Assembly (NCBI GenBank): GCA_021777995.1 | Contig: JAJYCW010000011.1 | Location: 1-54,988 of the forward strand | Length of the DNA: 54,988 bases | Origin: a bacterium | GTDB taxonomy: Bacteria > Armatimonadota > Chthonomonadetes > Chthonomonadales > Chthonomonadaceae | Reading direction: 5' to 3' | Part shown: positions 10,653 to 29,301 of the stretch, in pieces | How positions within the stretch are numbered: position 1 is the first letter of the stretch | Layout: each line of letters opens with the position of its first letter | Made by a program: the position numbers and the translations under genes | The notes under the pieces: generated by a model | What the model saw: only the letters and a program-made list of their open reading frames with translations | Told to the model about the DNA's origin: nothing | The model's database searches: none

Positions 10653-11333
10653 GTGACGGACAACATGCCCGATGGGTTGCCTACAATTGTCTCGTTAAAT
10701 GTTGGACGTCCTGCCTGGCATATGAGTGGTACAGCAGCTCACGGAGAGACCAAATGGTATTCCGGCATTGTAAAGTCATCTATTACGGAGCCAGTATTAC
10801 TTGGTGAGTTGAATCTGGAAGGTGATGAACAGGCGGATGGCTTAAACCACGGCGGTCGTGACAAGGCCGTACTGGCATACGCATGGTCGCATTATAATCA
10901 CTGGCCTTCTGAATTGGGGCGCACCACGCTGCCGGTGGCAGCGTTTGGCGAGAACTTTACACTATCAAACTGCAACGAAGCAACTTTTTGCATTGGCGAC
11001 ACCTACGAGGTGGGTGCAGCTATCCTGCAGGTTTCTCAGCCTCGCCAACCTTGCTGGAAACAGGAGCGCCGATTGGATTGTCCCGGTCTTATAGTGAGGA
11101 TGACAGGCAGTGGCAGAACGGGCTGGTATTTTAGAGTTCTTCGCGCGGGGCTCGTTGGGCCTGGAAACCAGTTCAGGTTAGTTGCACGTCCAAATCCAGA
11201 CTGGACTGTGGAGGCCGCCAATAGGGTTATGTATGCACGTCCAATTGAAGTTGCACGTGACCATTCACTGGCTGCGTGTCCGTATCTTTCTGAGTCCTGG
11301 GTGAATACACTACTGCGGCGTTCACCCAAATGA
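10653..11333 (+). CDS. MOSC domain-containing protein (YiiM-like)
   Basis: A 226-residue protein of the YiiM group of MOSC proteins, relatives of the molybdenum-cofactor sulfurase C-terminal domain. Several members bind molybdopterin cofactor and reduce N-hydroxylated compounds. The pattern is clear: DGLNHGGRDKAVLAYA near residues 63-78, FGENFT, and QVSQPRQPCWK containing the conserved Cys that ligates the cofactor. The GTG start at 10653 has GGGAGA about 8 nt upstream. It follows ribE by 52 bp. A cofactor link to the MogA-like protein at 28351 is possible but not shown by position. Confidence 0.8.
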   Translation: MTDNMPDGLPTIVSLNVGRPAWHMSGTAAHGETKWYSGIVKSSITEPVLLGELNLEGDEQADGLNHGGRDKAVLAYAWSHYNHWPSELGRTTLPVAAFGENFTLSNCNEATFCIGDTYEVGAAILQVSQPRQPCWKQERRLDCPGLIVRMTGSGRTGWYFRVLRAGLVGPGNQFRLVARPNPDWTVEAANRVMYARPIEVARDHSLAACPYLSESWVNTLLRRSPK

Positions 11334-27065: not shown

Positions 27066-27148
27066 TCTGGCGGGATATAAATATCAGGATTACCTGTATG
27101 CCATACTGGGATGTAAGGGGCAGCTACGGGGGGAGGGGACCAAATAGC

Positions 27149-28354
27149 ATGCAGAGCGAAAGCAACACCGCGCACCAACGGTCACGTATTCCTGGTTGGG
27201 TAACTATTTCAGTCATATTACTTGCAGTCGCCATTATAGTGCGGTTGACACATGATCACAGTGTCAGAAGCCATAATCCCCTACAAGGCAACCACGAGCA
27301 GGCACCTGCGGCTTTGGCAGCCGTCGTTCAAAAGCTTCCAGACAATGCACAGTTGCCATATGTGCTTAACCTGGCTGGTGCCGACCACACCCGGGCGAGT
27401 GAGGGATTGCGATACGCCATTGTTGATTGGGTGGGGCAGCATTATGTTTTGGATCCGGGCAAGCACAGGTCGCTTCCGGAGCCAACACTTCAGTTCTTGA
27501 TTAGTTTTCTCCATGATGAGGACTCCGTCGTGCGTACACGCGCCATGGAGGTTATTCACCAGGATACGGTAAAGCCTGGATTGTACTACCTTCTGTGCGG
27601 TCTGCAAGATGAGGATCCGTGGGTAGCGGAAGATGCAGGAGAGTTACTTGCTCAATGGATGACCAGAAATAGACACAATCCTTTGCGATTGCAACTTATA
27701 CCCGGATTGATATCGGGCCTTCGCAGCAGGGATTCCGATGTGGTGCAGTTCGCTACCGTTACCCTTGCAATAGCCTTGGGCAACCAGTGGCACGTTTCCC
27801 GATTGGCATCAATCACTAAGCGCGATGCTATAACTGCCAAGTGGCTTAAATGGTGGAAATCCCGCGGGCCACAGTGGAAAACGGACGCACCATTCAACAA
27901 TATTAAGCCGTTTACGCCTACACATACCGATGCCGTTGGTGACTTCTACGCGGAAGGAGTATCGGGTCGCGCCTTAACAAACGCGGACCTCATGGGGCAT
28001 GTTACACTCGTGAACGTTTGGGGTATGGGCTGTGGTCCCTGTATTGCAGAGATGCCTTCCTTTGTGCAACTCTATAGCCACTACCGGTCTGCAGGTCTGC
28101 GCGTTATTGGTGCGGCGGAAAATGGTATTTCCGACAGACACGCGATACTGTCCTGGTGTCGGAAAAATGGGATTGATTATCCGCAGGTAAACGCAAATAG
28201 GCAGGTGCGATACCGTTTTGGTAGTATAGAGGATGTACCTGTCACTTTGCTGTTTGATAAGCAGGGCCGTGTTATACGCATTTGGCAGGGCGGACCAAGG
28301 CCACTTTACGCCTATGAACCGGCAATTACAGCGGCATTAGAGGGCAGGATATGA
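27149..28354 (+). CDS. Membrane-anchored HEAT-repeat and TlpA-type thioredoxin-like protein
   Basis: About 401 residues. An N-terminal membrane anchor (WVTISVILLAVAIIVRL) is followed by helical HEAT-like repeats (about 75-235, e.g. LHDEDSVVRTRAMEVI and LQDEDPWVAEDAGELL) and a C-terminal redoxin domain (about 275-400). The redoxin active site is CGPC (Cys295, Cys298) in NVWGMGCGPCIAEMPSF, as in TlpA/ResA thiol reductants; VPVTLLFDKQGRV carries the cis-Pro. The domain should face the periplasm. I choose the ATG at 27149, preceded by GGGAGGGG; a frame start at 27098 would place that site inside the gene. It overlaps the MogA-LarC fusion by ATGA. Confidence 0.75.
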   Translation: MQSESNTAHQRSRIPGWVTISVILLAVAIIVRLTHDHSVRSHNPLQGNHEQAPAALAAVVQKLPDNAQLPYVLNLAGADHTRASEGLRYAIVDWVGQHYVLDPGKHRSLPEPTLQFLISFLHDEDSVVRTRAMEVIHQDTVKPGLYYLLCGLQDEDPWVAEDAGELLAQWMTRNRHNPLRLQLIPGLISGLRSRDSDVVQFATVTLAIALGNQWHVSRLASITKRDAITAKWLKWWKSRGPQWKTDAPFNNIKPFTPTHTDAVGDFYAEGVSGRALTNADLMGHVTLVNVWGMGCGPCIAEMPSFVQLYSHYRSAGLRVIGAAENGISDRHAILSWCRKNGIDYPQVNANRQVRYRFGSIEDVPVTLLFDKQGRVIRIWQGGPRPLYAYEPAITAALEGRI

Positions 28355-29301
28355 TAGCCGTAGTGGTGACCGTGAGCGACCGCTGCAGCCGTGGCGAAGC
28401 GGAGGACAAATCTGGCCCGCTGGCAGTAAGCATGCTCGCCGCGCTCGGTTGGAATGTGCAAGAGCGTGTGGTGGTACCAGATGAGAAAGATCAGATCGTT
28501 GATGTACTCATTTCGGCCTGCAATAGTGGTGCATGGCTAGTTATCACTACGGGTGGAACGGGCCTGGCACCACGAGATGTCACCCCGGAGGCAACTCTCG
28601 CCGTAATTGAGCGTGAGGTACCGGGCATATCAGAACTGGTTCGCTGGCATGCCTACCGGAGGACTCCAAATTCGGTCTTGTCGCGCAGCGTGACAGGGGT
28701 GAAGGGACGTACGCTGATAGTTAACCTTCCGGGATCGGTAGGTGGCGTTCGCGACGGAATTCAGCTAATAGGTCCGTTGCTGGAGCATGCTGTTTCCATA
28801 CTACGTGACATTCCACATTCACACGAGCAGATGGTCTCTTCCCATTCGGAAACTCCTACTGCGGTGGATATATTGCAGGCGAATATTGACGACATGAACC
28901 CACAGTTTTGCGAGATCTTAAGCAGTCGTCTGTTCGAAGTAGGTGCCGTGGATGTATTCTACACGCCCATCCAGATGAAAAAGCAGAGACCCGGCTTTCT
29001 GCTTACCGTGCTAATATCGCCGAAGTTAAGCGAACGTGCGGCAGACATCATTTTTACCAATAGTACGACGCTAGGTGTTAGAATGCTAGAAGCCGAGAGG
29101 TTTATACAGAGTCGCAAATGGGTTACGGTGGAGACTAATTATGGCCCAATACGAGTTAAGGTAGGTTCATGGAAGGGCAGGGAAACTACCGCTGCACCGG
29201 AGTACGAAGATGTACGCGCTGCAGCGGAGCTTCACGGGGTATCGGCGGCCGACGTGCACTTCGCGGCACAAACCGCCTATGCAACTAGGGAATCCAATTA
29301 G
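28351..29301 (+). CDS. Fusion of MogA/MoaB molybdopterin-binding domain with LarC C-terminal domain
   Basis: A 316-residue two-domain protein. Residues about 1-160 are a complete MogA/MoaB domain: VVTVSDRCSRGEAEDKSGP, ITTGGTGLAPRDVTPEA (66-82) and NLPGSVGGVRDG. MogA adenylylates molybdopterin before molybdenum insertion. Residues about 171-316 match the C-terminal domain of LarC, the CTP-dependent nickel insertase of the nickel-pincer nucleotide cofactor: NIDDMNPQF (178-186), GAVDVFYTPIQMKKQRPG (198-215), TTLGVR and PEYEDVRAA. The His-rich N-terminal domain of LarC is missing. No stop or frameshift separates the halves. No larA, larB, larE or moa genes lie nearby. It is coupled to the TlpA-like gene upstream and overlaps the convergent M42 gene by 17 bp. 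I know of no described function for this combination. Confidence 0.88.
   Translation: MIAVVVTVSDRCSRGEAEDKSGPLAVSMLAALGWNVQERVVVPDEKDQIVDVLISACNSGAWLVITTGGTGLAPRDVTPEATLAVIEREVPGISELVRWHAYRRTPNSVLSRSVTGVKGRTLIVNLPGSVGGVRDGIQLIGPLLEHAVSILRDIPHSHEQMVSSHSETPTAVDILQANIDDMNPQFCEILSSRLFEVGAVDVFYTPIQMKKQRPGFLLTVLISPKLSERAADIIFTNSTTLGVRMLEAERFIQSRKWVTVETNYGPIRVKVGSWKGRETTAAPEYEDVRAAAELHGVSAADVHFAAQTAYATRESN

Follow-up and report, generated by a model that had tools for sequence, protein, structure and literature searches.

A MogA-LarC2 fusion protein in the Chthonomonadaceae probably serves two separate metal-cofactor pathways

In molybdenum cofactor (Moco) synthesis, MogA adenylylates molybdopterin, and Asp49 and Asp82 of the Escherichia coli enzyme are required for activity (PMC9458074). 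MogA proteins are trimers (PMC3896444). Cnx1 and gephyrin, two-domain molybdenum insertases, combine a MogA-type G domain with a MoeA-like E domain, and their two domains act sequentially on one cofactor; in PRK03604, the C-terminal partner of the MogA-type domain is MoaC. LarC of the nickel-pincer pathway, represented by the proteins of L. plantarum and Moorella thermoacetica, consists of the halves LarC1 (TIGR00299) and LarC2 (NF052512), which in L. plantarum are joined by a ribosomal frameshift. Ahead of nickel insertion, LarC transfers CMP to the pincer precursor's phosphate, and it hydrolyses this bond afterwards (PMC11796402).

We analyzed a stretch of 54,988 nucleotides (the window; contig JAJYCW010000011.1 of assembly GCA_021777995.1) from a genome of the family Chthonomonadaceae, referred to as G000. 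A preliminary description, made from the window alone, had proposed that one uninterrupted frame joins a complete MogA-type domain to the C-terminal half of LarC, and the open frame, Pfam, NCBIfam and a structure model all agree with it (Table 1). In Pfam, residues 5-146 matched MoCF_biosynth (E = 2.6e-31), and residues 164-302 matched Ni_insertion (LarC, PF01969; E = 5.1e-44). The latter match covers only profile positions 237-374 of 375, and the N-terminal LarC1 domain is thus missing from the polypeptide, as described earlier, and is encoded as a separate gene. The NCBIfam model nickel_LarC2 (NF052512) matched residues 173-289 with 141 bits, above its cut-off of 50. The MogA half passed the domain model TIGR00177 (113.5 bits against 85.35) and scored below the equivalog cut-offs of PRK09417 (121 bits against 158) and PRK03604 (154.7 against 285), a shortfall perhaps explained by the partial architecture. 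Automated annotation is likely to label such a gene "MogA" or "LarC" alone and overlook its second half, so that a nickel-pincer pathway goes unnoticed in a family in which LarA is missing from half of the genomes.

The structure model of the fusion has a mean pLDDT of 87 and shows two confident domains connected by a loose linker at about residues 159-165, where pLDDT falls below 50. It matches the Cnx1G/MogA structures on one side and LarC2 (6bwo/6bwq) on the other. The MogA half, whose MoCF_biosynth fold is indicated by Pfam, the model and the structural matches alike, is 45% identical to Thermus thermophilus MoaB (2is8) over the structural match and also matched gephyrin G and Cnx1G. For the LarC2 half, the matches included LarC2 6bwo (3.7e-21) and full LarC 12bi (3.1e-27). 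Like MogA, Cnx1 G and gephyrin G, the protein has a full domain with the equivalents of both catalytic residues, gephyrin Asp61 and Asp94, and this pair (Asp44 and Asp76) is retained in 16 of 17 orthologues in the family. Signature positions of LarC2 (N-[IVL]-D, P184, MKK, R213 and PE at 283-284) vary little or not at all in the family alignment.

Table 1. Features of the fusion gene and of the gene upstream, in positions of the window
Feature	Positions	Strand	Basis
Upstream gene, HEAT repeats and TlpA-like thioredoxin	27098..28354	+	Stop overlaps fusion start (ATGA)
MogA-LarC2 fusion gene	28351..29301	+	Uninterrupted frame, 316 aa; Pfam and NCBIfam domains; orthologues in family
MogA (molybdopterin adenylyltransferase) domain, residues 3-155	28357..28815	+	Pfam, structural match
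Asp44 (gephyrin Asp61, Cnx1G Asp515, E. coli MogA Asp49)	28480..28482	+	Gephyrin alignment; invariant, 17/17
Asp76 (gephyrin Asp94, Cnx1G Asp548, E. coli MogA Asp82)	28576..28578	+	Gephyrin alignment; 16/17, Ala in G003
LPGS motif of MogA site (LPFS in G003)	28726..28737	+	Alignment
Interdomain linker	28816..28857	+	Length and sequence vary between orthologues (alignment)
LarC2 (CTP-binding C-terminal half of LarC, the nickel-pincer cyclometallase), residues 170-310 approximately	28858..29280	+	NF052512, PF01969

The fusion is present in all 17 genomes of the Chthonomonadaceae, a family of soil and hot springs (11 genera, one closed chromosome), with orthologues at 45-75% identity. Agreement among 17 independent assemblies, one of them closed, rules out the possibility raised in the preliminary description that a sequencing or assembly error had merged two genes. 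Nor is the architecture common. In a census of 291 Armatimonadota genomes it was confined to these 17, with none of the 274 genomes outside the family carrying it, so that a widespread fusion is excluded within the phylum. Among the best 80 loci of a wider genome scan, both domains occurred in one frame only in two Chthonomonadaceae records. In other families, MogA, where found, is a separate gene. We rejected mogA-larC adjacency as the ancestral route to the fusion, as no locus outside the family had both genes among the matches listed. Trees of the two domains are consistent with a single origin, although such short domains do not prove it. Literature searches for the MogA-LarC2 architecture returned no description, and as far as the literature could be searched it is undescribed, in line with the earlier statement that no characterized example was known.

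No lar or moa genes adjoin the fusion within the window, but both pathways are encoded elsewhere in the genome, and in the relative G010, the distance between the fusion and molybdopterin-synthase genes is about 2 kb. G000 contains MoaA, MoaC, MoaE and MoeA together with a sulfite-oxidase-type molybdoenzyme. Among the lar genes, a search of G000 recovered LarB (G000:C144:8243-9043), LarE (G000:C144:6291-7166) and a stand-alone LarC1 distant from the fusion (G000:C184:13532-14266); larA was not found there. Across the family, LarB was detected in 16 and LarE in 15 of the 17 genomes. No second MogA was found in any family genome, G000 included, which speaks against another copy freeing the MogA domain of the fusion for a different role.

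The stand-alone LarC1 gene, matching PF01969 positions 1-235, was detected in 15 of the 17 genomes; the two without a match, G004 and G005, are fragmented assemblies (97% and 94% complete). Its C-terminal end is the point at which full-length LarC enters the interdomain linker. Loss of the N-terminal half of LarC is therefore ruled out, since its gene is located elsewhere in the genome, and the separate LarC1 gene together with LarC2 on MogA indicates that LarC has been split at the interdomain linker. Full-length LarC is present in four of five genomes searched from other families of the same order; the fifth, an assembly 64% complete, yielded no LarC match. The fusion genomes share with those of known LarC systems a LarC2 bearing the signature residues, LarC1, LarB and LarE, but differ from them in that the genes encoding LarC1 and LarC2 lie far apart and LarC2 is carried on MogA. 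That LarC can be cut into two proteins at one exact position makes the division of labor between its halves, nickel handling and CTP chemistry, testable in trans. The gene immediately preceding LarC1 in G000, G002, G003, G006 and G010, which span several genera, is a menaquinone-biosynthesis gene (VitK2_biosynth, MqnD-like; L259:3714-5267 on G000:C184). A gene for a secreted DUF2092-like protein lies between larE and larB in G000 (L260:7299-8093, G000:C144) and G003 (L262:6709-7599).

LarA was absent from 8 of the 17 family genomes, including G000 and the closed genome of Chthonomonas calidirosea T49. Because LarA is the known user of the nickel cofactor, the product of the LarC2 half would have no known consumer in G000, and a cofactor user other than LarA is expected in these genomes.

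We consider it probable (roughly 0.8) that the fusion is a bifunctional protein serving two separate and ordinary pathways, those of molybdopterin and of the nickel-pincer cofactor, after LarC was split. In an ancestor common to the Chthonomonadaceae, LarC would have divided at the linker between its domains, and its C-terminal CTP-binding half would have been added to the C-terminal end of MogA, of which the family has no other copy. The MogA half would adenylylate molybdopterin with ATP, after which MoeA would insert molybdenum. The LarC2 half, acting with LarC1 in trans, would cytidylylate pyridinium-bisthiocarboxylate mononucleotide and so allow nickel insertion. From the genomes and alignments, we infer both enzymatic activities and the LarC1-LarC2 association in trans, as well as any scaffold role. 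What the halves would have in common is a type of chemistry, the attachment of a nucleotide to a ligand phosphate ahead of metal insertion. The trimeric state of MogA proteins makes a shared oligomeric scaffold a reasonable guess, and both halves probably share one, while the metal-handling partners MoeA and LarC1 would stay separate proteins. The fusion resembles Cnx1 and gephyrin in joining a MogA-type domain to a second cofactor-maturation domain, but here the partner, LarC2 in place of the MoeA-like E domain, belongs to a nickel cofactor. The preliminary description had spoken of a nucleotidyl-transfer and metal-insertion enzyme. The first part holds, in that each half belongs to a step in which nucleotide transfer readies a ligand for its metal; as the protein has neither the nickel-binding LarC1 domain nor MoeA, it is better termed a pair of nucleotide-activating domains than a metal inserter.

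The genome of C. calidirosea T49 (G003; 3,437,861 bp, PMC4959169), closed in a single contig, amounts to a natural knock-out, with decay of the Moco half of the fusion and survival of the nickel half. It is the only one of the 17 that lacks MoaA, MoaC, MoaE and MoeA together, and neither of the two molybdoenzyme families sought was found in it. LarB, LarC1, LarE and the fusion are all retained. Of the 38 residues of the MogA half that are invariant in the other 16 genomes, G003 has lost 10 (C12, D19, S21, L29, T67, D76, T78, E87, G128 and H146), compared with at most two in any other member. One of these is the catalytic Asp76, replaced by Ala, so that the Asp pair is incomplete in this species. 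The LarC2 half has lost 1 of 22 invariant residues. The gap between the mean identities of the two domains to the family lies 7.4 SD from the other members. Consistent with this, no branch of the MogA tree is longer than that of G003 (2.68; median 0.35), whose branch in the LarC2 tree is ordinary (0.43; median 0.71).

Decay of the MogA site in G003, with LarC2, LarC1, LarB and LarE persisting, suggests that nickel-pincer synthesis in this species needs no MogA chemistry, and the intact LarC2 half in a genome without Moco synthesis makes the two activities look separable. The simplest reading, based on one lineage, is that selection maintains the MogA half solely for Moco synthesis and that LarC2 functions independently of MogA catalysis. 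A stronger form of coupling, in which ATP activation of molybdopterin and CTP activation of the nickel-pincer precursor on one polypeptide coordinate cofactor output, or one activity influences the other, beyond mere tethering, appears rather unlikely.

The decayed domain in G003 is still full-length and attached to LarC2. Together with the trimeric state of MogA proteins (PMC3896444), this could indicate that the main role of the MogA domain is structural, as a scaffold for LarC2 oligomerization, and that adenylylation is incidental. For the family as a whole, we regard this as quite unlikely, because 16 of 17 orthologues keep the catalytic Asp residues and a further MogA was found in none of the genomes, both of which point to a catalytic role in members that make Moco. 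A scaffold role in C. calidirosea itself is plausible.

The preliminary description had favored a shared or new cofactor, which would require the halves to cooperate on one pathway, either with MogA adenylylating the nickel-pincer precursor or with LarC2 acting on molybdopterin. Maintenance of the physical fusion across 11 genera, the missing LarA in 8 of 17 genomes and the parallel chemistry of the two enzymes, each placing a nucleotide on a ligand phosphate before the metal (PMC11796402, PMC9458074), are compatible with this proposal. However, LarC1 persists, encoded separately, and the two standard pathways are otherwise complete, the usual Moco genes being present in family members other than C. 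calidirosea, where the MogA site lacks Asp76, Thr78 and Gly128 while LarC2 and its partners LarC1, LarB and LarE remain. A shared or new cofactor is therefore very improbable. Least probable of all is that the LarC2 half no longer takes part in nickel-pincer synthesis and instead, for example, binds CTP or regulates something else: the distant LarC1 locus and the absence of LarA from 8 of 17 genomes could be read in this way, but LarC1, LarB and LarE are retained with the fusion almost family-wide, the signature residues are conserved and the equivalog-domain cut-off for LarC2 is passed, and larB, larC and larE without larA characterize a recognized group of about 15% of the genomes surveyed (PMC11796402), indicating that a user other than LarA is usual.

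In support of the bifunctional reading, the fusion in G010 ends a co-directional run with moaE and a gene encoding an endonuclease IV-ThiS/MoaD-like protein. In the window, the ATGA overlap between the stop of the upstream gene and the start of the fusion suggests that the two are likely co-translated. The same HEAT/TlpA-thioredoxin gene lies beside the fusion in G002, G003, G005 and G010, a link to the fusion that is positional only. The one other window gene seen to be tied to molybdenum-cofactor biology encodes a MOSC/YiiM-like protein (10653-11333). The gene adjoining moaE in G010 (L273:10030-11181) is itself an odd fusion with a molybdopterin-synthase partner, in which an endonuclease IV-like protein carries a C-terminal ThiS/MoaD-like domain ending in Gly-Gly.
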